From Stutzerimonas azotifigens (GTDB lineage: Bacteria; Pseudomonadota; Gammaproteobacteria; Pseudomonadales; Pseudomonadaceae): DNA of 64,000 bases. The notes below the pieces were generated by a model that was not told the DNA's origin, searched no databases, and worked only from the letters and a program-made list of their open reading frames with translations. This document shows, in pieces, positions 9,390-54,097 of the stretch. Each line of letters begins with the position of its first letter. The first letter of the stretch is position 1. The stretch covers positions 124,001 through 188,000 of the forward strand of contig NZ_JAAMRF010000008.1 of the NCBI RefSeq assembly GCF_013522725.1. Direction: 5' to 3'. The position numbers were made by a program, and so were the translations under genes.

Positions 9390-10097
9390 TCAACGGTCGC
9401 CGACGGTGATTTCCAGCGTGCCGATGCCCTGTACGCCGCCGCTCAGCCGGTCGCCGGGTTCAACCGGGCCGACGCCGGCCGGGGTGCCGGTCATGATGAG
9501 GTCGCCGGGCTCGAGGACGAACAGCCGCGACAGGTAGGCGATCACTTCCGGCACGCTCCAGATCTGCGAGGCGAGGTCGCCTTCCTGACGTGTGTCGCCG
9601 TTGATGTTGAGCCAGATGCGGCCTTCTGTGGGGTGGCCGATCATCTGCGCCGGTACCAGCGCCGAGCAGGGGGCGGCGTGGTCGAAACCCTTGGCCACGG
9701 CCCACGGGCGGCCCATTTTCTTCGCTTCGGCCTGCAGGTCGCGGCGGGTCATGTCCAGGCCCACGGCGTAGCCGTAGACGTGCTCAAGCGCCTGCTCGAC
9801 CGGAATGTCTGAGCCGCCGCGGCCGATCGCCACGACCAGTTCGATCTCGTGGTGGACGCTTTCGGTGGCCGGCGGGTAGGGGAATTCACTGCCGTCGGGC
9901 AGCAGGCTGTCGGGGTGCTTGGTGAAGAAGAAGGGCGGCTCGCGGTCCGGGTCGTGGCCCATTTCCCGGGCGTGGTCGGCGTAGTTGCGCCCAACGCAGT
10001 AGATGCGCCGCACCGGAAAGCGCTGGCCGCTGTTTGCGATGGCGAGGCTGGGGATGCTGGGGGTAAAGAGGTAGTCGCTCTGCTCGGACGAACTCAT
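9390..10097 (-). CDS. Fumarylacetoacetate hydrolase (FAH) family protein
   Basis: The chosen start (10097) lies seven bases downstream of GGAG and gives a 235-residue protein of the short FAH class (fumarylpyruvate/acylpyruvate hydrolase or oxaloacetate decarboxylase type). Family features include [13 protein letters not shown], the metal-site region [11 protein letters not shown], the DMTRRDLQ stretch and the closing [16 protein letters not shown] signature. Such enzymes cleave or decarboxylate 2-oxo or diketo acids with a divalent metal. It lies 67 bases behind the IlvD/Edd dehydratase on the same strand. In this context it probably hydrolyses a 2,4-diketo or related intermediate of sugar-acid breakdown; that role is inferred. 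Confidence 0.9.
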
Positions 10098-10164
10098 CGG
10101 GTGCTCCATGATTGACGGGTTGCTCGGAGCCGCCCCGCCACAGGCAGGGCGGCAAGGAAGGTGT

Positions 10165-11916
10165 TCAGCGCTGCTGCGGGATGCTGCCGTGCTCGTTGAG
10201 GCTGCGCAGGAAGTCAAAATCGCAGCCGTTGTCTGCCTGGGTGACGGTGTCCAAGAACAGTTTGCGATACCCGCGCCCATCCCCTTCGCGCGGCGCCGGC
10301 AGGCTGAGGGCATCGCGCCGACGGGCCAGCTCCTCGTCGCTGACCAGCAGTTCCAGGGCGCGCTCGCGCACGCTCAGACGCAGCCGATCACCACTTTCGA
10401 TGAGCGCGAGCGGGCCGCCGACGGCCGCCTCCGGGGTCACGTGCAGAATGATGGTGCCGCCTGCCGTGCCGCTCATGCGGCCGTCGGAGATGCGCACCAT
10501 GTCCTTCACCCCGGCGCGCGCCAGCTTGCGTGGGATCGGGATATAACCGGCTTCCGGCATGCCTGGCGCGCCCTTGGGGCCGATGTTCTTGAGCACCAGG
10601 ATGTCGTCGGCGTTAACGTCGAGGTCCGGGGCGTCGATGCGCTGTGCCAGGTCTTCCAGGCCGTCGAACACCACCACGCGGCCCTCGTGCTCCATCAGCT
10701 CGGCACTGGCCGCCGATTGCTTGATGATCGCCCCGTCCGGCGCGAGGTTGCCGCGCAGGAAGGCGATGCCGCCTTGCGGGTAGATCGGGTTGTCCAGCGG
10801 GCGCACCACGTCCTGCGGGAAGGCCGCGACCGCATCGAGCTCCTCGCCCAGTGTGCGTCCGGTGACCGTCAGCGCGTCCAGGTGCAGGAACGGCCGCAGT
10901 TCGCGTAGCACGGGCGCCAGCCCGCCGGCCCTGTGCAGGTCTTCCATGTAATGCGTGCCGGACGGCTTGAGGTCGACCAGCACCGGAATGTTGCGGCCGA
11001 GCGCGTCGACCTCGTCCATGTCGATGCGGATGCCGCAACGGCCGGCGATCGCCGCCAGGTGCACGATGCCGTTGGTGGAGCCGCCAATGGCGAGCAACAC
11101 CATCAGGGCGTTCTCGAACGCTTTTTTGGTGAGAATCCGATCAGGCGTCATGCCGGCCTGGATCATGGCCACCGCCTGGGTGCCGGTGCGCTCGGCGATA
11201 CGGATGCGATCGGCGGTGACCGCCGGTGGCGTGGCGCCGCCGGGGAGCATCATGCCCAGCGCTTCGGTGACGCAGGCCATGGTACTGGCGGTGCCCATGA
11301 CCGAGCAGGTTCCAACGCTGGCGACCAGCTGGTCGTTGACCTCGGCGATTTCCTGGGCGTCGATCTCGTCGCCGCGGTACATGCCCCAGAAGCGTCGGCA
11401 GTCGGTGCAGGCGCCTACGCGCACGCCGCGGTGCGAGCCGGTCAGCATCGAACCGCTGACCAGCTGGATGGCCGGCACGCCGGCGCTGGCGGCGCCCATC
11501 AGCTGCGCCGGGACGGTCTTGTCGCAGCCGCCGATGAGCACCACGGCATCGATCGGCAGGGCGCGGATCATCTCCTCGGTGTCCATCGACATCAGGTTGC
11601 GCAGGAACATGCTGTTGGGGTGGGCGAAGCTCTCGTGGATCGAGATGGTGGGGAAATCCACCGGCAGGCCGCCGGCGAGCATCACCCCGCGCTTGACCGC
11701 TTCGATCAGCTGCGGCGCGTTGCCGTGGCAAGGATTGAAGCCGCTGCCGGTGTTGGTGATGCCGACGATTGGCCGTTCCAGCGCATCGTCCGAATAGCCC
11801 GCGCCCTTGATGAAGGCCTTGCGCAGGAACAGCGAGAATTCCGCATCGCCATAGTTGGTCAGGCCCTTGCGCATGCCGCGGGCAGGGTTGTTGCCGGGGT
11901 TCTGGTCGTCGTTCAC
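10165..11916 (-). CDS. IlvD/Edd family sugar-acid dehydratase
   Basis: A 583-residue dehydratase of the IlvD/Edd family that removes water from an aldonic-type acid to give a 2-keto-3-deoxy acid. Three cysteines placed as in the [2Fe-2S] pentonate dehydratases are visible: Cys63 (NPCHGN), Cys131 (GGCDKT) and Cys204 (GTCSVMGTA). The length and divergence from IlvD, together with the sugar-acid neighbours, favour an arabonate/xylonate/galactonate-type dehydratase over branched-chain amino-acid synthesis. It is the first enzyme gene after the LacI regulator on the minus arm and is followed by the FAH-family gene. The exact substrate cannot be read from sequence. Confidence 0.9.
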
Positions 11917-43968: not shown

Positions 43969-44925
43969 TCACATCTCCTCGGGTGTACGCCCGGGCTCCA
44001 GCGCCCGGCTGACGGCATTGATCGCCGCGCGCTCGCTCTGCACGAAGCGAAAGAAGGTCTGCGCCACCGGTGAGAGGTGCTTGCCGCGCGGATAGGCCAG
44101 GCACCAGCTGCGCACCAGCGGCAACTCCTCCACCGGCAATTCCACCAGCACGCCAGCCTGCAGTTCGTGGCGCACCGCGTGGCGCGGCAACAGCGCGATG
44201 CCCATGCCTGCCAGTACGCCTTCCTTCTGCGCTTCGAACGATGCCAGCTCCTCGGTAAGGGGGAAATGCGCGCGCTTCTGATGGCAGTACTCTTCACAGG
44301 CCTTGCGTGTCCCGGAGCCCTGCTCGCGCACCAGCAGCGGCCAGGCGGTGAGTTCCTGCAGCATCAGCGATGCGCGTTTGGTTGCCGGATGCCCAATCCG
44401 GGCCACCGCGACGATGGCGTTGTCCAGGAAGGGCAGGAATTCCAGCGCCAGGTCGGAAGGAATCTGGGTCATCACCAGCAGGTCGTCGCGGTTGGCGGTG
44501 ATGCGCTTGACCGCCTCGGCATGATTGACCACCACCAATTGCAGGCTGACTTCCGGATAACGGTCGCGAAAAGCGGCGAACAGGTGCGGCAGGAAATACT
44601 TGGCGCTCGACTCGATGGCCAGGCGCAGCTGGCCTTGCAGCGAGCCCTGCAGGTCGGACAGCTGCATGTCGAGGCTCTCGAGCCGACCGAAGATATCGCT
44701 GCTGGCGCGTCGTAATGCCTCGGCGGCTTCGGTCAGGTAGAGCTTCTTGCCGACGTAATCGAACAGCGGCTGGCCCACCAATTCCTCGAGCTGGCGAATC
44801 TGCAGGCTCACCGCCGGCTGGGTCAGCGACATTTCCAGGGCGGCGCGGCTGTAGGAGCGACTGTCACAGACCGCGCGAAAGACCTGAAGCTGGCGCAAGG
44901 TGAGGCGCAGCAGCGATTTGCGCAC
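43969..44925 (-). CDS. pycR: LysR-family regulator next to pyruvate carboxylase
   Basis: A 318-residue LysR regulator. The winged helix-turn-helix is near the start (LTLRQLQVFRAVCDSRSYSRAALEMSLTQPAVS), with the effector domain from about residue 95. The GTG at 44925 is favoured by GAGGA eight bases upstream. It is divergent from pycA, the same arrangement as PycR in P. aeruginosa, and the symbol is assigned on that synteny. A perfect palindrome lies in the divergent region. It probably activates or tunes the pyruvate carboxylase genes. Confidence 0.88.
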   Translation of the reverse strand: MRKSLLRLTLRQLQVFRAVCDSRSYSRAALEMSLTQPAVSLQIRQLEELVGQPLFDYVGKKLYLTEAAEALRRASSDIFGRLESLDMQLSDLQGSLQGQLRLAIESSAKYFLPHLFAAFRDRYPEVSLQLVVVNHAEAVKRITANRDDLLVMTQIPSDLALEFLPFLDNAIVAVARIGHPATKRASLMLQELTAWPLLVREQGSGTRKACEEYCHQKRAHFPLTEELASFEAQKEGVLAGMGIALLPRHAVRHELQAGVLVELPVEELPLVRSWCLAYPRGKHLSPVAQTFFRFVQSERAAINAVSRALEPGRTPEEM

Positions 44926-44962
44926 GGTATCGGTCCTCGAAAAAGGTGCTTGTGGGAGCTGT

Positions 44963-44978
44963 ATAAGTAAATACTTAT
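44963..44978. promoter_or_regulatory. Putative PycR-binding palindrome
   Basis: ATAAGTA-AA-TACTTAT is a perfect inverted repeat containing the T-N11-A core typical of LysR boxes. It lies 38 bases upstream of pycR and about 120 upstream of pycA. A second weaker repeat, TGATT/AATCA, is at 44997-45012. No footprint evidence is available from sequence alone. Confidence 0.55.
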
Positions 44979-45099
44979 GCATAGCCAAACAATTATTGAT
45001 TTTCTTTAATCATCGGTAAAGGCGTAGTTTAAAACGCGACCCCGTCTCTGATTGTGGTCACACAGCGACCCGAAATAACAACGATCCGAGGGCTTTCGC

Positions 45100-46515
45100 G
45101 TGATCAAAAAGCTACTGATCGCCAACCGTGGCGAGATCGCCGTGCGCATCGTGCGCGCTTGCGCCGAGATGGGCATTCGCTCGGTGGCGGTCTACTCCGA
45201 GGCCGACCGCATGGCGCTGCACGTCAAACGTGCGGACGAGGCCTATCGCGTCGGCGAAGACCCGCTGGCCGGCTACCTCAACCCGCGCAAGCTGGTGAAC
45301 CTCGCGGTGGAGACCGGCTGCGACGCGCTCCATCCCGGTTATGGGTTCCTCTCCGAAAACGCCGAGCTGGCGGAAATCTGCGCCGAGCGCGGGATTCGCT
45401 TCGTCGGTCCCAGCGCCGAAGTGATTCGCCGCATGGGCGACAAGACCGAGGCGCGGCGCAGCATGATCAAGGCCGGCGTGCCGGTCACGCCCGGTACCGA
45501 GGGCAATGTCGGGGATCTGGCCGAGGCGCTGGCCGAGGGCGACCGCATTGGCTATCCGGTGATGCTCAAGGCGACTTCAGGCGGCGGCGGGCGCGGCATT
45601 CGCCGCTGCAACTCGCGCGCCGAGCTGGAGCAGAACTTCCCGCGGGTGATCTCCGAGGCGACCAAGGCATTCGGCAGCGCGGAAGTCTTCCTGGAAAAAT
45701 GCATCGTCAATCCCAAGCACATCGAGGCGCAGATCCTCGCCGACGGCCACGGCAACACGGTGCACCTGTTCGAGCGCGACTGCTCGATCCAGCGGCGCAA
45801 CCAGAAGCTGATCGAGATCGCCCCGAGCCCGCAGCTCACCCCCGAGCAGCGCGCCTACATCGGCGATCTGGCGGTGCGCGCCGCCCAGGCGGTGGGTTAC
45901 GAGAACGCTGGCACCGTGGAGTTCCTGCTCGCCGATGGCGAGGTGTACTTCATGGAGATGAACACCCGGGTGCAGGTCGAACACACCATCACCGAAGAGA
46001 TCACCGGGATCGACATCGTCCGCGAGCAGATTCGCATCGCCTCCGGCCTGCCGCTTTCGTTCAAGCAGGAGGACATCCAGTACCGCGGCTACGCGCTGCA
46101 GTTCCGGATCAACGCCGAGGACCCGCGCAACGGCTTCCTGCCCAGCTTCGGCAAGATCACCCGCTATTACGCGCCCGGCGGCCCCGGCGTGCGCACCGAC
46201 ACGGCGATCTACACCGGTTACACCATCCCGCCGTATTACGACTCCATGTGCCTGAAGCTGATCGTCTGGGCGCTGACCTGGGAAGAAGCCCTGGCCCGCG
46301 GCTCGCGCGCGCTGGACGACATGCGCGTGCAGGGCGTGAAGACCACCGCGACCTACTACCAGCAGATCCTCGCCGATCCGGACTTTCGCAGCGGTCGCTT
46401 CAACACCAGCTTCGTCGACGAACACCCGCAGCTGTTGAACTACTCGATCAAGCGCAAGCCCGGTGAATTGGCCCTGGCCATCGCCGCCGCCATCGCCGCC
46501 CATGCCGGCCTGTAG
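45100..46515 (+). CDS. pycA: Pyruvate carboxylase subunit A (biotin carboxylase)
   Basis: A 471-residue biotin carboxylase that uses ATP and bicarbonate to make carboxybiotin. ATP-grasp features are visible: KATSGGGGRGIRRC (glycine-rich loop), HIEAQILADGHGN, the metal site EFLLADGEVYFMEMNTRVQVEH and the bicarbonate-site arginine within it. It begins with GTG at 45100, preceded by GAGGG. The downstream gene carries the carboxyltransferase and biotinyl domains, so the two subunits form a two-piece pyruvate carboxylase that replenishes oxaloacetate. Confidence 0.95.
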   Translation: MIKKLLIANRGEIAVRIVRACAEMGIRSVAVYSEADRMALHVKRADEAYRVGEDPLAGYLNPRKLVNLAVETGCDALHPGYGFLSENAELAEICAERGIRFVGPSAEVIRRMGDKTEARRSMIKAGVPVTPGTEGNVGDLAEALAEGDRIGYPVMLKATSGGGGRGIRRCNSRAELEQNFPRVISEATKAFGSAEVFLEKCIVNPKHIEAQILADGHGNTVHLFERDCSIQRRNQKLIEIAPSPQLTPEQRAYIGDLAVRAAQAVGYENAGTVEFLLADGEVYFMEMNTRVQVEHTITEEITGIDIVREQIRIASGLPLSFKQEDIQYRGYALQFRINAEDPRNGFLPSFGKITRYYAPGGPGVRTDTAIYTGYTIPPYYDSMCLKLIVWALTWEEALARGSRALDDMRVQGVKTTATYYQQILADPDFRSGRFNTSFVDEHPQLLNYSIKRKPGELALAIAAAIAAHAGL

Positions 46516-46542
46516 CTTCCGGCCGATGAAGGAGCAGAACCC

Positions 46543-48351
46543 ATGAACAAGAAAATCACGGTCACCGACACCATCCTGCGCGACGCCCACCAGTCGCTGC
46601 TGGCCACCCGCATGCGCACCGAGGACATGTTGCCGATCTGCGAGAAGCTCGACCGCGTCGGCTACTGGTCGCTGGAAGTCTGGGGTGGCGCCACCTTCGA
46701 TACCTGTGTGCGCTTTCTCAAGGAAGACCCCTGGGAGCGCCTGCGCCAGCTCAAGGCGGCGCTGCCCAACACGCGTCTGCAGATGCTATTGCGCGGGCAG
46801 AACCTGCTCGGTTACCGGCACTACAGCGACGACGTGGTCGAGGCCTTCTGCGCCCGTGCGGCGGATAATGGCATCGACGTGTTCCGCATTTTCGATGCGA
46901 TGAACGACGTGCGAAACCTCGAAACCGCCATTCGCGCGGTGAAGAAGACCGGCAAGCATGCCCAGGGCACCATCGCCTATACCACGAGCCCCGTGCATAC
47001 CACCGAGGCGTTCGTCGAGCAGGCGCGAACGATGGCGGCGATGGGCGTCGACTCGATCGCAATCAAGGACATGGCCGGTCTGCTGACCCCTTACGCCACC
47101 GGCGACCTGGTCAAGGCGCTCAAGAGTGCGCTGCCGGAAATGGATGTGGTGGTGCATTCCCACGACACCGCGGGCGTGGCCAGCATGTGCCAGCTCAAGG
47201 CGCTGGAAAACGGCGCCGATCGCATCGACACCGCCATCTCCAGCATGGCCTGGGGCACCAGCCATCCGGGCACCGAGTCGATGGTCGCTGCGCTGCGCGG
47301 CACGCCCTACGACACCGGCCTGGACCTGGAGCTGCTGCAGGACATCGGTCTGTACTTCCATGCGGTGCGCAAGAAGTACCACCAGTTCGAGAGTGAATTC
47401 ACTGGCGTCGACACCCGGGTGCAGGTCAACCAGGTGCCCGGCGGGATGATTTCCAACCTCGCCAACCAGCTCAAGGAGCAGGGCGCGCTGAACCGCATGA
47501 ACGAGGTGCTGGCGGAGATCCCGCGGGTGCGCGAAGACCTCGGCTTCCCGCCGCTGGTCACGCCGACGTCGCAGATCGTCGGCACCCAGGCGTTCTTCAA
47601 CGTGCTGGCCGGCGAGCGCTACAAGACCATCACCAATGAAGTGAAACTCTACCTGCAGGGCCGCTACGGCAAGGCACCCGGCGCGGTGAACGAGACGCTG
47701 CGTCGTCAGGCTATCGGCAGTGAGGAGCTGATCGAGTGTCGCCCGGCCGATCTGCTCAAGCCTGAACTCGATCGCCTGCGTGCCGAGGTCGGCGCACTGG
47801 CGAGCAGCGAGGAGGACGTGCTGACCTACGCCATGTTCCCGGATATCGGCCGCAAGTTCCTCGAGGAGCGTGAGGCCGGCACGCTGCAACCCGAAGTGTT
47901 GTTGCCGATTCCCGACGGCAGTGCGACCGCCGCGAGCGCCGGTGGAGTGCCGACCGAGTTCGTCATCGACGTGCATGGCGAAAGCTACCGCGTCGACATC
48001 ACCGGGGTCGGCGTCAGGGGCGAGGGCAAGCGGCACTTCTACCTGTCGATCGACGGCATGCCCGAGGAGGTGGTGTTCGAGCCGCTCAACAGCTATGTCG
48101 CGGGTTCCGATGGTGGGCGCAAACAGGCCAGCGGGCCGGGCGACGTCAGCACCAACATGCCGGGCAACATCGTCGAGGTGCTGGTGGCCGAAGGCGATAC
48201 GGTCAAGCCGGGTCAGGCCCTGCTGATCGCCGAGGCGATGAAGATGGAAACCGAAGTGCAGGCGCCCATCGCCGGTACGGTGAAGGCGATCCACGTGACC
48301 AAGGGCGACCGGGTCAACCCTGGCGAGACGCTGGTGGAAATCGTCGCCTGA
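46543..48351 (+). CDS. pycB: Pyruvate carboxylase subunit B (carboxyltransferase plus biotinyl domain)
   Basis: A 602-residue protein. The N-terminal TIM barrel transfers carboxyl to pyruvate (TDTILRDAHQSLLATRMRT with the metal-binding aspartate; KDMAGLLTPY; the VVVHSHDTAGVA metal histidines). The C-terminal biotinyl domain ends with the EAMKMETEV motif about 35 residues from the end. The same family includes oxaloacetate decarboxylase alpha, but no OadB/OadG genes are nearby and a biotin carboxylase is, so the anaplerotic role is preferred. It follows pycA by 27 bases, and a strong terminator comes next. Confidence 0.95.
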   Translation: MNKKITVTDTILRDAHQSLLATRMRTEDMLPICEKLDRVGYWSLEVWGGATFDTCVRFLKEDPWERLRQLKAALPNTRLQMLLRGQNLLGYRHYSDDVVEAFCARAADNGIDVFRIFDAMNDVRNLETAIRAVKKTGKHAQGTIAYTTSPVHTTEAFVEQARTMAAMGVDSIAIKDMAGLLTPYATGDLVKALKSALPEMDVVVHSHDTAGVASMCQLKALENGADRIDTAISSMAWGTSHPGTESMVAALRGTPYDTGLDLELLQDIGLYFHAVRKKYHQFESEFTGVDTRVQVNQVPGGMISNLANQLKEQGALNRMNEVLAEIPRVREDLGFPPLVTPTSQIVGTQAFFNVLAGERYKTITNEVKLYLQGRYGKAPGAVNETLRRQAIGSEELIECRPADLLKPELDRLRAEVGALASSEEDVLTYAMFPDIGRKFLEEREAGTLQPEVLLPIPDGSATAASAGGVPTEFVIDVHGESYRVDITGVGVRGEGKRHFYLSIDGMPEEVVFEPLNSYVAGSDGGRKQASGPGDVSTNMPGNIVEVLVAEGDTVKPGQALLIAEAMKMETEVQAPIAGTVKAIHVTKGDRVNPGETLVEIVA

Positions 48352-48367
48352 TCGAGCAGTCCCCCCT

Positions 48368-48393
48368 GGGAGCCGCAAGGCTCCCTTTTTTTT
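48368..48393 (+). terminator. Terminator after pycAB
   Basis: GGGAGCC/GGCTCCC stem with a GCAA loop followed by eight T, 17 bases after the pycB stop. It separates pycAB from the bicarbonate-transporter genes, though some read-through is possible. Confidence 0.92.
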
Positions 48394-48475
48394 ACGACGA
48401 AACGTACGTGCTTCGCCCGCCGCGGGCGTCGTCTAGCCTTGCAGCTGAACGATCATCAACGAACCGGAGGTATCG

Positions 48476-49417
48476 ATGGGGCTGGACCCTGTAGTGCTGT
48501 TCTTTCTGTTCGGCCTGTTCGCCGGGCTGGTCAAAAGCGAGCTGAAATTGCCGCCCGCGCTGTACGACACCCTCTCGATCCTGTTGCTGCTCGCCATTGG
48601 CCTGCACGGCGGCGTCGAGCTCGCCGAACAGGCCAGCGCCGCGCTGCTCGGCCAGTCGGCGCTGGTATTGTTGCTCGGCTGCTGCCTGCCGCTGCTGGCC
48701 TTCCCGCTGCTCAGGGCGCTCGGTTTCTCGCGGGTCGATTCGGCCGGCGTCGCGGCCCACTACGGTTCGGTCAGCGCCGGTACCTTCGCGGTGGTGGTGG
48801 CGTTCCTGCTGGCCAAGAACATCGACTTCGAAAGCTACATGCCGCTGTTCGTGGCGATCTTGGAGATCCCGGCGATCCTGGTTGGCATCGTGCTGGCCAA
48901 GGGCATCAGTCGTGATACGAACTGGCGCGAGCTGGGCCGCGAGATTTTCCTCGGCAAGAGCATCATGCTGCTGCTCGGCGGACTGATCATCGGGGCGATC
49001 GCCGGCAAGGAGGGCATCAAGCCGCTGGAGCCGTTCTACACCAGCATGTTCAAGCCGGTGCTGGCGCTTTTTCTGCTGGAGATGGGCCTGATCGCCTCGG
49101 GTCAGCTCGGCTCGCTCAAACGCTACGGGCTGCGGCTGGCGGCGTTCGGTCTGGGCATGCCGCTGATCGGTGCGCTGGTCGGTGCCGTGCTGGCACGGCT
49201 GATGGGGCTGTCGCTGGGTGGCACGGCGATGCTCGCCACGCTTTCGGCGAGCGCGTCCTACATTGCCGTGCCGGCCGCCTTGCGCCTGGCGGTGCCCGAA
49301 GCCAACCCGTCGCTGTCGCTGACGGCGTCGCTGGGTATCACCTTTCCGTTCAACATCCTGATCGGCATCCCGCTGTACCTGGCGCTGGCCGAACAACTGA
49401 TCGCCTGGGGGTTCTGA
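48476..49417 (+). CDS. sbtA: SbtA-family sodium-dependent bicarbonate transporter
   Basis: A 313-residue membrane protein with about ten helices arranged as two five-helix inverted repeats. Family segments include SELKLPPALYDTLSILLLLAIGLHGGVEL in the first repeat, AAHYGSVSAGTFAVV (substrate-site motif), and SASASYIAVPAALRLAVPEANPSLSL in the second. SbtA imports bicarbonate with sodium in cyanobacteria; heterotroph members exist, but their physiology is poorly known. The following gene is an SbtB-like PII protein one base downstream. The preceding pyruvate carboxylase consumes bicarbonate, which suggests that the transporter feeds it. Confidence 0.9.
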   Translation: MGLDPVVLFFLFGLFAGLVKSELKLPPALYDTLSILLLLAIGLHGGVELAEQASAALLGQSALVLLLGCCLPLLAFPLLRALGFSRVDSAGVAAHYGSVSAGTFAVVVAFLLAKNIDFESYMPLFVAILEIPAILVGIVLAKGISRDTNWRELGREIFLGKSIMLLLGGLIIGAIAGKEGIKPLEPFYTSMFKPVLALFLLEMGLIASGQLGSLKRYGLRLAAFGLGMPLIGALVGAVLARLMGLSLGGTAMLATLSASASYIAVPAALRLAVPEANPSLSLTASLGITFPFNILIGIPLYLALAEQLIAWGF

Positions 49418-49418
49418 C

Positions 49419-49721
49419 ATGACCGAGCACATCCGCACCTTGCTCACCGTGATCTGCGAGTCGGCGCTGGAGTCCAGGCTGGTCGCCGACCTCAAGCAGC
49501 TCGGGGCGCCGGGCTGGACGCTGTCCGACGCGCGCGGCTCGGGCAGCCGTGGCGTGCGCAGCGCTGAATGGAACACCGAGGGCAACATCCGCCTGGAAGT
49601 GATCTGCAGCCGCGACATTGCCGAGCGCATCGCACGGCACTTGCAGACGCGCTATTACGACCATTTCGCGATGGTCTGTTACCTCGCTCAGGTCGAGGTG
49701 CTGCGCCCGGCCAAGTTCTAG
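49419..49721 (+). CDS. sbtB: SbtB-like PII signal protein
   Basis: A 100-residue protein with the PII ferredoxin-like pattern: a beta-strand (TLLTVICESALE), a helix (SRLVADLKQLGA), a strand (GWTLSDARGSGSRG) leading into a T-loop (SAEWNTEGN), then a strand (IRLEVICSRDIAERIARHL) and the closing YYDHFAMVCYLAQVEVLRP. It lacks the CGPxGC C-terminal loop of some cyanobacterial SbtB proteins. Its placement one base after sbtA implies that it gates the transporter in response to an adenyl nucleotide; ligand and binding mode are inferred from the family. Its stop overlaps that of the convergent GNAT gene. Confidence 0.85.
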   Translation: MTEHIRTLLTVICESALESRLVADLKQLGAPGWTLSDARGSGSRGVRSAEWNTEGNIRLEVICSRDIAERIARHLQTRYYDHFAMVCYLAQVEVLRPAKF

Positions 49722-50325: not shown

Positions 50326-51909
50326 TCAGAGCCCGCAGACGCTGCCGTCGCTGCGTGGGTCCGCCGCGCCTTCGATCACTCCGCTGGGGTGGCGCAGCAG
50401 CGCACCGGCATGACCCATGGTGTCGCTGAAGGCCTCGTCGAGCACATCGACCACGTGCCCGGCGGCGCGCAGCTGCGCGACCAGCTCCGCAGGGAAGCGG
50501 CTTTCGAGCTTGAGACTGGTGCTGACGTCGCCCCAGGTGCGCCCCAGCAGCCAGCGCGGCGCGGTGATCGCGGCCTGCAGATCGCTGCCCAGACGGTAGC
50601 GACTGAACACCGCTGCCTGGGTCTGCGGCTGGCCTTCGCCGCCCATGGTGCCGTAACTCAGGGTGCGCCCGTCATCGAACAGCGCCAGCGCCGGATTGAG
50701 GGTGTGGAACGGCTTGCGGCCCGGCTCCAGCGCCTGCACCGCAGTCGGGTCCAGGGAAAAGCTGATGCCGCGGTTCTGCCAGTTCACCCCAGTGCTGCGC
50801 AACACCACGCCGGAGCCGAACTCCCAATAGACGCTCTGGATGAAACTGACCGCGCGACCTTCGCTGTCGATGCAGCCCATCCAGATGGTGTCGCCGGGTG
50901 CGGCCGGGCGCGGCCAGGGCAGTGCCTGCTCGGGATCCACCGCGGCGGCCAGTTCGTCGAGCTGCGTCGGGTCGAGAAAGCCCTGCGGGTCGGATGGCAC
51001 CCGGCCGGGGTCGGTGACCACCCGATCACGAATCATGAAGGCCTGCTTGGTCGACTCCACCAGACCGTGGACGTGGGCGAAGCCTTCGGCCTCGGCGACC
51101 CTCAGGCGCTCGAAGATGCCGAGGATCAGCAGCGAGGCCAGGCCCTGGGTGGGCGGCGGCATGTTGTAGAGCGTGGCGTCGCCCAGGCGCAGCTGCAGCG
51201 GCGTCACCACCTGGGCGCGGTAGCCTTGAAGGTCGGCCAGGCGCAGCGGACTGCCGAGCTGTTCGAGTTCGGCGGCCATCGCGGTGGCCAGCTCGCCGCG
51301 GTAGAAATCGTCCAGCCCGGCGCTGGCGAGGCGCTCGAGGGTAGCTGCCAGGGCGGGCAGGCGCAGCAGGCTGCCTTCGTCTGGTACCTGGCCATCGACC
51401 AGAAAGGTCTCGGCAAAGCCCGGCACATCACGCAGCTCCTGCAGCTTGACGCGTTTGAGGTGCGCCTGGCTGCGACTCACCACAATGCCGCTGCGGGCGC
51501 GGCCGATGGCATCGGCCAGCAGGTCGGCCAGCGGCAACGCCTTGCCCCAGGGCGCCGCGACCTCCAGCGCCTTGGCCCAGCCGCCGATGGTGCCGGCGAC
51601 AGTCAGCGCGGCCAGCGGGCCGCGCGAGGGAATCTGTTCGTGACCGGCGTAGAAATCGCGGCTGGCCAGGGCGGCGCTCGGCCCGCAGGCGTCGATGGCC
51701 ACCGGAGTCTTGCTCGGTTCATGGATGAGCCAGAAACCGTCGCCGCCGATGGCGTTCATGTGTGGGTAGACCACGGCGATGGTGGCGGCGGCGGCGACCA
51801 TCGCCTCCACCGCGTTGCCGCCGGCCTTGAGCACGTCACGACCGGCTTGCGCGGCCAGATGATGGGGCGCCACGAACAGGCCGTTGGTGGCATGGGTAGT
51901 CTTGAGCAT
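50326..51909 (-). CDS. Gamma-glutamyltransferase family hydrolase (cytoplasmic type)
   Basis: A 527-residue Ntn-hydrolase. Family landmarks are AAQAGRDVLKAGGNAVEAMVAA near the start, MNAIGGDGFWLIH (about 51-63), and a candidate nucleophile Thr341 in GDTIWMGCIDSEG, at the position where the precursor is cut into large and small subunits. Later GTMGGEGQPQ forms the glycine-rich loop. There is no signal peptide, unlike classical periplasmic GGT, so it would act inside the cell on something imported. It follows the TauE/SafE gene by nine bases and is the last gene of the sigma-54-driven TRAP operon. Confidence 0.88.
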   Translation of the reverse strand: MLKTTHATNGLFVAPHHLAAQAGRDVLKAGGNAVEAMVAAAATIAVVYPHMNAIGGDGFWLIHEPSKTPVAIDACGPSAALASRDFYAGHEQIPSRGPLAALTVAGTIGGWAKALEVAAPWGKALPLADLLADAIGRARSGIVVSRSQAHLKRVKLQELRDVPGFAETFLVDGQVPDEGSLLRLPALAATLERLASAGLDDFYRGELATAMAAELEQLGSPLRLADLQGYRAQVVTPLQLRLGDATLYNMPPPTQGLASLLILGIFERLRVAEAEGFAHVHGLVESTKQAFMIRDRVVTDPGRVPSDPQGFLDPTQLDELAAAVDPEQALPWPRPAAPGDTIWMGCIDSEGRAVSFIQSVYWEFGSGVVLRSTGVNWQNRGISFSLDPTAVQALEPGRKPFHTLNPALALFDDGRTLSYGTMGGEGQPQTQAAVFSRYRLGSDLQAAITAPRWLLGRTWGDVSTSLKLESRFPAELVAQLRAAGHVVDVLDEAFSDTMGHAGALLRHPSGVIEGAADPRSDGSVCGL

Positions 51910-51918
51910 GGTCGCTTC

Positions 51919-52755
51919 TCAGTTCGAAAAGGCGCCGATCAGCATGCGCGCGGCAGTGATGGCGAGGAACAGCGCGAACAGGCGCTTGAGCAGCTGGGCG
52001 TTGATCGCATGGGCGATGCGTGCGCCCAGCGGCGCGGTGAGCATGGTCATCGGCACGATCAGCGCCAGGCCCAGCAGGTTGACGTAGCCCAGCGAGGCGG
52101 GCGGGCGCGCTGGCACGCCGAGACCGTTGATGAGGTACGCCAGCGCCCCCGGGATGGAGATCACCACGCCGAGCGCGGCACCGGTGCCCACCGCGATGTG
52201 CATGGGCGTGCGGAAGGCGCTCAGGGCCGGCACGCTAAGGGTGCCGCCGCCGATACCCATCAGCGTCGAGACGGCGCCGATGAACAGGCCCAGCATGCCG
52301 GTGCCGAAGCGTCCCGGCAGGCCGTCGCGCAGGTCGAAGGTGCGCGGCAGGGCCATGTTCAGCGACACCAGCACGGCCACCACGCCGAAGATCACCGCCA
52401 GCGTCTGGCCGCTGAACACGCCGCTGAGCAGGCTGCCGATCAGCACGCCGACCAGGGTCGAGGGAATCAGCGGTTTGAGCAGTTCGGGCTTGAGCCCGCC
52501 GCGCTTGTAGTGCGCCCGCGCCGAAATGATCGAGGTGGGGATGATCGCCGCCAGCGAGGTGCCGACTGCGACGTGCATGCGCACGTCCGCGTCGATGCCG
52601 AGCAGCGTGAACAGGTGATAGAGCACCGGGACGATGACGATCCCGCCGCCGACGCCGAGCAACCCGGCGAGAATCCCGGCGACGGCACCGGTGACCAGCA
52701 ACGCGACGACCAGTCCGGCCAGCCAGGCCGGACTGTAGGCAGACAAAAATTCCAT
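51919..52755 (-). CDS. TauE/SafE (TSUP) family sulfite/organosulfonate exporter
   Basis: A 278-residue membrane protein with about eight helices in two repeats; the family repeat appears twice as AGLLGVGGGIVIVPVLY and VSTLMGIGGGTLSVPAL. The ATG at 52755 follows AGAGG. Members move sulfite, sulfoacetate or related anions. It is placed between a TRAP permease and a gamma-glutamyltransferase-like enzyme on the same strand, which suggests that a sulfur-containing substrate or its waste product is handled; this is inference. Confidence 0.9.
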   Translation of the reverse strand: MEFLSAYSPAWLAGLVVALLVTGAVAGILAGLLGVGGGIVIVPVLYHLFTLLGIDADVRMHVAVGTSLAAIIPTSIISARAHYKRGGLKPELLKPLIPSTLVGVLIGSLLSGVFSGQTLAVIFGVVAVLVSLNMALPRTFDLRDGLPGRFGTGMLGLFIGAVSTLMGIGGGTLSVPALSAFRTPMHIAVGTGAALGVVISIPGALAYLINGLGVPARPPASLGYVNLLGLALIVPMTMLTAPLGARIAHAINAQLLKRLFALFLAITAARMLIGAFSN

Positions 52756-52771
52756 AGCGCCTCTCTTGTTA

Positions 52772-54097
52772 TTACCAGCCGATGGCCTTCGGTAGCCAGG
52801 TGGCAAGGGTGGGGAAGAAGAATACCAGCGCGACCGCGATCATCTGCAGCCCGACGAAGGGCAGCGCGCCGACGTAGATGTCGCGGGTGCGCACACCCGG
52901 CGGCGCGACGCCCTTGAGAAAGAACAGCGCCCAGCCGAACGGTGGCGTGAGGAATGACATCTGCAGGTTCAGCGCCACCAGTATGGCCAGCCAGACCATG
53001 TCCGTGTCGTAGCCGATGAACACCGGCAGGAACATCGGCAACGCGATGTAGGAGATCTCGATCCATTCGAGGAAGAACCCCAGCACGAACAGCAGTGCCA
53101 TCAGGAACAGGATCGCCCCCAGCTCGCCGCCGGGCAGCAGGCCGAACAGGTCATGCACCAGCGCCTCGCCGCCCAGCCCGCGGAAGGCCAGGGAAAACGG
53201 CTGCGAGCAGAACAGGATCAGGAAGATCATCGCGCTGATGGTCAGCGTGCCGTGCAAGGTCTGCTTGAGCGTTACCCGGTTCAGCCGTCCGGCGCAGGCG
53301 GCGATCACCAGCGCGCCGAGGGCGCCCATCGATGCCGCCTCGGTGGGCGCGGCGATGCCACCGATGATCGCGCCCAGCACCGCGATCACCAGCGCCAGCG
53401 GCGGCAGCACGGTGCGCGCCAGGTCCTTGAGCAGCTGCTTGCGACTGATCGCGGCGCGCTCTTCGGCGGGGATCGCCGGCACCCATTCAGGGCGCAGCCA
53501 GCCGAGCAGCAGCATGTAAATGATGTACACGCTGGCCAGCACCAGACTCGGGATGAACGCGGCGGCGAAGATCGAACCGACCGACTGGCCGAGGATGTCC
53601 GCCAGCAGGATCAATACCAGGCTCGGTGGGATCACCTGGCCCAGGGTGCCCGAGGCGCAGATGGTGCCGCAGGCGACGCTCGGCTTGTAACCGCGGCGCA
53701 GCAGAGCCGGCAGCGTCAGCAGGCCGACCGTGACCACGGTGGCCCCGACGATGCCGGTCGAGGCACCGAGCAGCACGCCGACCAGCACGATCGCCAGGCC
53801 CATGCCGCCGTTGAGCCCGCCCATGGCCTTGCCGATGGTCTCGAGCATGTCTTCGGCGACCCGTGATTTCTCCAGCATCACCCCCATGAAGGTGAACAGC
53901 GGAATCGCCAGCAGCGTGTAGTTGCTGGCCACGCCGAACATCCGCGCCGGCAACAGGCTGAACAGCATCGGGCCGAAGCCCAGCAGCCCGGCGGCGAAGC
54001 CGGAGACGGCCAGCGAGATCGCCACCGGCACCCCGATCATCATCATGCCGAAGAAGGCGAACACCATCAGGATCGCCAGCCATTCGTTGGGGCTCAT
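52772..54097 (-). CDS. dctM: TRAP transporter large permease (DctM)
   Basis: A 441-residue protein with twelve to thirteen membrane segments. DctM family motifs include VPVAISLAVSGFAAGLLGFG near the start, LLAIPLFTFMGVMLEKSRVAEDML (about 60-85) and ALFVLGFFLEWIEISYIALPMF late. It forms the sodium-coupled channel of the TRAP importer with the small DctQ subunit, whose gene overlaps it by four bases, and with the receptor at 54615-55709. Confidence 0.95.
   Translation of the reverse strand: MSPNEWLAILMVFAFFGMMMIGVPVAISLAVSGFAAGLLGFGPMLFSLLPARMFGVASNYTLLAIPLFTFMGVMLEKSRVAEDMLETIGKAMGGLNGGMGLAIVLVGVLLGASTGIVGATVVTVGLLTLPALLRRGYKPSVACGTICASGTLGQVIPPSLVLILLADILGQSVGSIFAAAFIPSLVLASVYIIYMLLLGWLRPEWVPAIPAEERAAISRKQLLKDLARTVLPPLALVIAVLGAIIGGIAAPTEAASMGALGALVIAACAGRLNRVTLKQTLHGTLTISAMIFLILFCSQPFSLAFRGLGGEALVHDLFGLLPGGELGAILFLMALLFVLGFFLEWIEISYIALPMFLPVFIGYDTDMVWLAILVALNLQMSFLTPPFGWALFFLKGVAPPGVRTRDIYVGALPFVGLQMIAVALVFFFPTLATWLPKAIGW

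Follow-up and report, generated by a model that had tools for sequence, protein, structure and literature searches.

Two means of supplying bicarbonate to cells, SbtA with its partner SbtB on the one hand and MpsAB on the other, are built from unrelated proteins. MpsAB provides bicarbonate/CO2 in a non-autotroph, Staphylococcus aureus (PMC6689103). In cyanobacteria such as Synechocystis (slr1512–slr1513) and Cyanobium 7001, the transporter gene sbtA is followed by sbtB, which codes for a PII-fold protein, and Synechocystis SbtA is described as a Na+ symporter for uptake (PMC8352866). In E. coli, SbtA raises HCO3− uptake, with succinate going down when the transporter acts alone and up when it is combined with PPC or PCK (PMC4667291). 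SbtA-like proteins exist in numerous heterotrophs (PMC10117731), and genes of the dissolved inorganic carbon toolkit have been noted in such organisms by a paper whose accessible text has neither the word ‘SbtB’ nor the word ‘adjacent’ (PMC10880623). Here we describe an sbtA–sbtB-like pair from Stutzerimonas azotifigens, located next to the genes for a pyruvate carboxylase in a stretch of 64,000 nucleotides (contig NZ_JAAMRF010000008.1 of assembly GCF_013522725.1, positions 124,001 to 188,000), which as a whole is called the window below.

Comparison of this locus across genomes suggests that pairs of the SbtA/SbtB type often lie beside bicarbonate-consuming enzymes: pyruvate carboxylase, PurK (together with PurE) and TsaC. 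Carbonic anhydrase is a further neighbour. We consider it probable that such an SbtA importer, with its SbtB-like partner as an adenylate-sensing gate, serves bicarbonate-dependent biosynthesis and not autotrophy. Among the consumers, TsaC uses HCO3−. The same anion is a substrate of pyruvate carboxylase and PurK (PMC10880623). The component genes are already known; their wiring to bicarbonate-using enzymes is undescribed in the accessible text of the literature searched, which was open-access with subscription papers mostly outside, and in which we found no description of SbtA beside pyc, purEK or tsaC.

The locus in the window and in Pseudomonadaceae

In the window, sbtA (48476..49417, + strand) codes for a 313-residue homologue of the Na+-dependent bicarbonate transporters (Pfam Sbt_1) and is the single Sbt_1 gene of its genome; one base later begins the gene for a 100-residue, SbtB-like PII protein (49419..49721, +; Pfam P-II). 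Upstream on the same strand lies pycA (45100..46515, GTG start), which specifies the biotin carboxylase subunit, the user of HCO3− and ATP (Pfam Biotin_carb_N/C and CPSase_L_D2; 972 bits against NCBIfam PRK07178, whose cut-off is 768). It is followed by pycB (46543..48351, +), for the subunit combining carboxyltransferase and biotin carrier (Pfam PYC_OADA, HMGL-like and Biotin_lipoyl), the best PDB match of which is the beta subunit of a pyruvate carboxylase of the two-subunit type (5ks8_C, 809 bits); PycB also exceeds the cut-off of NCBIfam oadA (849 versus 756.5). With biotin carboxylase and carboxyltransferase–biotin carrier on separate subunits, PycA and PycB constitute a two-subunit pyruvate carboxylase. 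Divergent from pycA and upstream of it is a gene for a LysR-family regulator (43969..44988, −; Pfam HTH_1 and LysR_substrate), whose true start is probably inside the TTG-started open reading frame (ORF) and which is retained beside pycA in relatives whose loci were taken with long flanks. Pfam confirms the identities that the original prediction had given to pycA, pycB, sbtA and the PII gene. Its description of the organism as heterotrophic fits as well: RuBisCO (PF00016) had no match in the window's genome or in the seven other family members tested. No Rfam family matched at gathering thresholds between 43900 and 50600, i.e., no RNA regulator was found by the locus.

Sbt_1 genes occur in 36 of 56 congeners and in 91 of 398 genomes of the family, distributed over seven of its 19 genera; loci were read from 90 of these 91 genomes, leaving out G228, where SbtA is split across two contigs, and a second copy in G004. 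Seven of the 90 carry a distant SbtA (41–46% identity), with sbtB undetected and the tested bicarbonate genes all missing from the vicinity. One distant copy (G167:C45:86104-87270) has a frame with five internal stops and is possibly a decayed gene. The near type of SbtA is present in 83 genomes; in 79 of them, across six genera, its gene comes directly after pycB and shares its strand (where loci were taken with 1.5 kb flanks, they reveal pycB and not pycA), and sbtB is downstream of sbtA in all 83. The linkage is thus not confined to one genome, and the lack of synteny among relatives that would have refuted the original prediction is not what is seen. The gap between pycB and sbtA ranges from 18 to 598 bp, or is 799 bp where an anhydrase gene occupies it. 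Three of the four genomes devoid of pyc at this position have purE-purK after sbtAB (G192, G216 and G218), and the fourth, G383, has tsaC about 1–2 kb from both of its sbtA copies; a further genome, G307, holds one pyc-linked and one tsaC-linked copy. Hence, taking the 79 with pycB together with the three with purE-purK and the one with tsaC, in all 83 genomes a gene for an enzyme that uses bicarbonate is located no more than 3.2 kb from an SbtA gene.

Between pycB and sbtA the window contains a hairpin with a T-run that resembles an intrinsic terminator (48368..48393, +), as previously noticed. Taken alone, the terminator scan proves nothing, since the 6 kb scanned yielded three such sites where chance would give 3.4. 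Within the genus, however, every distinct pycB–sbtA gap examined was flagged for a T-run hairpin, in most cases of the GGGAGCC type, so that sbtAB in these genomes probably forms a unit of its own or depends on read-through. The caution in the original prediction, that the linkage might be positional without forming an operon, was therefore right for this genus. The sister genus, g5, differs: the scan flagged no terminator in its pycB–sbtA gaps (in L101 there is a long hairpin, though it has no T-run), the gaps lacking an intervening anhydrase measure 18–137 bp, and the arrangement looks operonic. All 13 near-type genomes read from this genus have purE-purK after sbtAB and in the same orientation, and 10 of them also have pycB upstream. 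Three of the 10 have carbonic anhydrase (CA) within the row: in G144 (on one contig) and G156, a divergent LysR gene is followed on one strand by pycA-pycB-CA-sbtA-sbtB-purE-purK, and in G222 the order is pycB-sbtA-sbtB-CA-purE-purK.

In 33 of the 36 sbtA-bearing congeners, sbtA has a β-carbonic anhydrase gene (PF00484) no more than 6 kb away; besides the window's genome, the exceptions are a close relative of it, G013, and G018, which is fragmentary. Among the 20 congeners that lack sbtA, 15 have the anhydrase gene at most 3 kb from pycB (pycB being the lower-scoring PF02436 match, with its identity checked for 15 of the 20; the loci of G023, G036, G037, G039 and G048 were left unread). The possibility that SbtA substitutes for a missing anhydrase was rejected, as PF00484 is present in all 56 congeners. 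In two congener loci, a glutaminase-like gene stands between sbtB and the anhydrase gene (L093, about 9493-10401 on the reverse complement; L095, 8759-9724, with PF04960 confirmed for the latter). Taken together, the original interpretation is partly supported: bicarbonate supply to a carboxylase accords with the anhydrase near pyc and sbt genes in relatives and with the absence of RuBisCO, whereas pyruvate carboxylase as the sole partner does not stand, given the purE-purK, tsaC and anhydrase genes near sbtA(B) in relatives. Adjoining the locus in the window (50326-54097, −) are ORFs resembling, by eye, a gamma-glutamyltransferase, a TauE/SafE-type permease and a TRAP large permease.

Neighbourhoods outside the family

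Searching named genomes with 17 SbtA sequences yielded at least 579 confirmed loci, the best 80 of which were used. Unbiased clustering of all ORFs neighbouring sbtA in these 80 placed PurK (14/80) and PurE (13/80) above every other enzyme; the clusters ranking before them were SbtA, SbtB, a LysR cluster and one antisense to SbtA (some recurrent clusters look antisense and were left uncounted; neither of two representatives matched a Pfam family). The PurE, PurK, Sua5/TsaC and anhydrase clusters were each verified by Pfam through a single representative. Among the 73 of these loci that come from outside Pseudomonadaceae, 27 are linked within 3.2 kb to one or more of the genes in question: 15 to purE and purK, two to purE alone, five to tsaC alone and five to the anhydrase alone, with RuBisCO alone near two more and none of the tested genes near 44. 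The linked taxa include Pseudohongiella, Neptuniibacter, Aeromonas, Kangiella, Microbulbifer, Marinobacter, Luteimonas, Wenzhouxiangella and Polaromonas.

Under uniform placement, a model that ignores kinship, 0.15 of the 73 loci would be expected near purE, against 17 seen. A better guard against kinship is a tree of 157 SbtA proteins, made by a quick method and with long-branch warnings, on which the 22 rows labelled pur imply 14 changes of that label, with 13 of them forced by well-supported branches; hence, the link to purE(K) arose or was retained repeatedly. The association is strong in and near Pseudomonadaceae, recurrent elsewhere and not universal.

We also drew a sample from across the class, unranked by similarity, comprising 57 loci from 53 genomes (a contig end shortens five of the 57). 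RuBisCO as the usual neighbour of sbtA was rejected, being within 3.2 kb in six of the 57 class loci and two of the 73 named ones. With a genome counted as RuBisCO-bearing at a 200-bit line, 37 of the 53 class genomes have a clear match, and linked loci occur in two of the 16 genomes without RuBisCO and one of the 37 with it. In the named set, where the count required a match of at least 400 bits (L251, with fragments, was added, and weaker RuBisCO-like matches were treated as absent), links are found for 22 of 52 RuBisCO-less against five of 21 RuBisCO-bearing genomes (Fisher p 0.11; for purE alone p 0.067).

The prominence of purine genes bears on a possible, though in our view less probable, account: the functional tie would be to purEK, or to bicarbonate supply in general, and the adjacency of pyc would be a by-product of an ancestral sbtAB-purEK row and of pycAB happening to occupy the same part of the chromosome in Pseudomonadaceae. 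The SbtA of Pseudohongiella falls inside the family's clade on the tree, in a locus ordered sbtA-sbtB-purE-purK with no pyc within 8 kb; this, together with the purE located 17 kb downstream on the same strand in the window's genome, indicates that the purEK tie may be older than the tie to pyc. The unbroken presence of purEK after sbtAB in the g5 genomes read points the same way. Against this account, the pycB–sbtA order is kept in 69 genomes outside g5 in which purEK was unseen near sbtAB (44 of the 98 near-type family loci were read with less than 3.2 kb downstream), and the widely ranging gap lengths of 18–598 bp show turnover around this retained order.

The PII-like protein and the transporter

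The product of the gene after sbtA matches Pfam P-II with 77 bits (cut-off 25). By sequence, its nearest solved relative is TTHA0516 of Thermus thermophilus (2cz4, 90 bits), a PII-like protein named ‘hypothetical’, followed by cyanobacterial SbtB-type chains (44–49 bits); profile scores give the same order, with 105 for 2cz4, 67–70 for SbtB-type chains, 29–30 for CPII and at most 26 for other PII proteins. The fold search with the predicted model agrees, placing 2cz4 and SbtB first, with the model loop 42–50 being of low confidence. TTHA0516 and the window's protein have a similarly short T-loop and the same W, and in a Meiothermus relative (L245) an sbtA-sbtB pair lies 2.5 kb from purE, which is on the opposite strand. 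Cyanobacterial SbtB binds phosphate through an R43xxR46 motif (PMC10117731); the corresponding RxxR at the base of the T-loop is kept here as R44 and R47, which are conserved in 71% and 95% of aligned rows, respectively. In contrast to the cyanobacterial protein, the T-loop is four residues shorter, with eight residues between R47 and N56 versus 12 in SbtB7001 (as taken from the alignment and PDB sequence stretches), and the CGPxGC redox loop (R-loop) is absent, the chain ending in ...VLRPAKF. The Cyanobium SbtB chain in the PDB ends at the same place, and the CGPxGC motif is conserved in some SbtB homologues (PMC8352866); thus, this motif marks a subset of SbtBs.

The shorter T-loop and the missing R-loop could be taken to mean that the PII protein acts on another target, such as pyruvate carboxylase, instead of gating SbtA. 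Eight purEK-linked loci, where purE-purK come close after sbtA and sbtB was undetected (L217, L224, L230, L231, L232, L243, L247 and L256), are in line with this idea, and they offer a natural comparison for the contribution of SbtB. We nonetheless regard it as unlikely: all 83 family genomes read have sbtB after sbtA, as do most of the best 80 named loci, whatever the neighbour. In Nitrosomonas-type loci (L233, L234, L244, L251 and L254), a divergent PII-like gene that aligns poorly with the window's SbtB comes after sbtA.

The window's SbtA matches the Sbt_1 profile (PF05982) over positions 1–307 of 308 with 374 bits (cut-off 27), and its closest PDB relative by sequence is Synechocystis SbtA (7cye, E 5e-24), compared with whose 374 residues it is without the middle segment. 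Its AlphaFold2 model (mean predicted local distance difference test score 86) displays helix breaks at 98–100 and 259–263 that correspond to the two broken crossover helices of the SbtA fold; the top five PDB matches of the model are all SbtA, with template modelling scores of 0.90 to 8zor_A and 0.81 to 7egl, the HCO3−-bound entry. The pocket residues V99, S100, S261 and I263 align with V113, S114, S324 and I326 of Synechocystis and are invariant in 17 of 17 aligned SbtAs (the positions come from the accessible literature on Synechocystis SbtA and on SO_3758 of Shewanella oneidensis, with V113 and I326 transferred by alignment). The latter is likewise an Sbt_1 protein of a heterotroph and has matching pocket residues; the locus of another Shewanella strain (L240) differs from ours in having a LysR gene upstream, no detected sbtB and none of the tested HCO3− genes within its flanks. 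In L193, L220 and L232, a cluster of ORFs that by eye resembles NhaA-like Na+/H+ antiporters is situated within 8 kb of sbtA and could supply a Na+ gradient.

Two of the four residues that contact docked HCO3− in Synechocystis SbtA are changed in the window's protein (Y140 to V126 and S327 to A264), which raises the question of whether bicarbonate is its main substrate or it carries a different small anion, such as formate, instead. Formate tolerance results from a point mutation in SO_3758, and Zymomonas benefits from the wild-type protein (PMC12093963). The same paper, in its accessible text, leaves the substrate and direction of SO_3758 unestablished, and the neighbours PycA, PurK, TsaC and carbonic anhydrase share HCO3−, not formate, as substrate or product; we hence deem such an alternative substrate distinctly improbable. 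Least probable of all is that SbtA exports bicarbonate, or exchanges it for pH or Na+ balance, with the carboxylase genes merely in a shared CO2/HCO3− regulon: efflux fits the modelling of SO_3758 better according to the authors of PMC12093963, and LysR genes recur near SbtA, but the Synechocystis protein is a symporter for uptake (PMC8352866) and an exporter next to HCO3−-limited enzymes would be wasteful.

A proposed bicarbonate supply to biosynthesis in heterotrophs

From the gene identities, the predicted folds and the conserved but varied neighbourhoods, we infer the substrate, the direction of transport, the need for it and its gating by energy state, and advance the following mechanism. 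SbtA would import HCO3− coupled to Na+. SbtB would bind adenylates, probably dock its T-loop on SbtA and close the transporter according to the bound nucleotide, as in cyanobacteria. The two proteins might thereby raise or stabilise cytosolic HCO3− for ATP-using, bicarbonate-dependent enzymes in a non-autotroph. In the window's organism, the HCO3− would go to pyruvate carboxylase for the replenishment of oxaloacetate; in relatives, it would also reach PurK for purines and TsaC for the threonylcarbamoylation of tRNA. The β-carbonic anhydrase encoded near the locus in most congeners could act as a second source by turning metabolic CO2 into HCO3−. Compared with the cyanobacterial systems, the order of the two genes, the SbtA fold and the PII fold are the same, whereas RuBisCO has no match in the genome and the neighbours are pyruvate carboxylase in the window and carbonic anhydrase, purEK or tsaC in relatives.

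Several observations weigh against the proposal that SbtA and SbtB serve bicarbonate-dependent biosynthesis. As to the sampling, the tested neighbour genes were chosen partly after viewing the neighbours, with phosphoenolpyruvate carboxylase and carbamoyl-phosphate synthase outside the set. The 44 outside loci with no tested gene nearby form the majority of the 73, a contig end shortening eight of the 44; in the class sample, purEK is near three of 57 loci and RuBisCO near six, with neither near 48, and tsaC, carbonic anhydrase and pyc are near sbtA in none of the 57. For RuBisCO-less genomes, the excess of links is no more than a non-significant trend. Some links are thin: the tsaC match of L211 is partial and at 30%, the anhydrase matches of Polaromonas and Verrucomicrobiaceae (26–34%) are by sequence match without Pfam, and L206 and L207 have the same SbtA protein. 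These two loci, named Luteimonas and Azoarcus, respectively, have identical SbtA sequences and equal tsaC spacing, reflecting either a recent transfer or a mixed assembly. Closer to the window, an Sbt_1 match is absent from 20 of 56 congeners; the window's genome has purE only at the distance of 17 kb and no adjacent anhydrase gene, its anhydrases being 171 kb off and on another contig; and the two substitutions in the pocket of its SbtA count here too. Moreover, a cytosolic anhydrase beside a bicarbonate importer could leak CO2 away, and the accessible text of PMC10880623 has transporter and cytosolic anhydrase tending to be alternatives in some groups, which is at odds with their pairing.

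More broadly, and with a belief that falls somewhat short of even, we tentatively extend the biosynthetic proposal to SbtA outside autotrophs in general: with or without SbtB, it might be a general feeder of bicarbonate, wired to the ATP-driven, HCO3−-using enzymes pyruvate carboxylase, PurK and TsaC as well as to carbonic anhydrase, with the SbtB-like protein reading the adenylate charge. If so, the entry of HCO3− would follow the energy available to the ATP-dependent reactions. This would give a role to the SbtA homologues of numerous heterotrophs and a likely function to the solved PII protein 2cz4, and the natural pairs of transporter and carboxylase would be on offer for succinate- or aspartate-type production. 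Bicarbonate is usually assumed to be plentiful in respiring heterotrophs; if a regulated importer serves the carboxylations of anaplerosis and purine synthesis, HCO3− would be capable of limiting them, probably at high pH or low CO2. In ordinary heterotrophs, these two pathways would then draw on a bicarbonate supply under active control.

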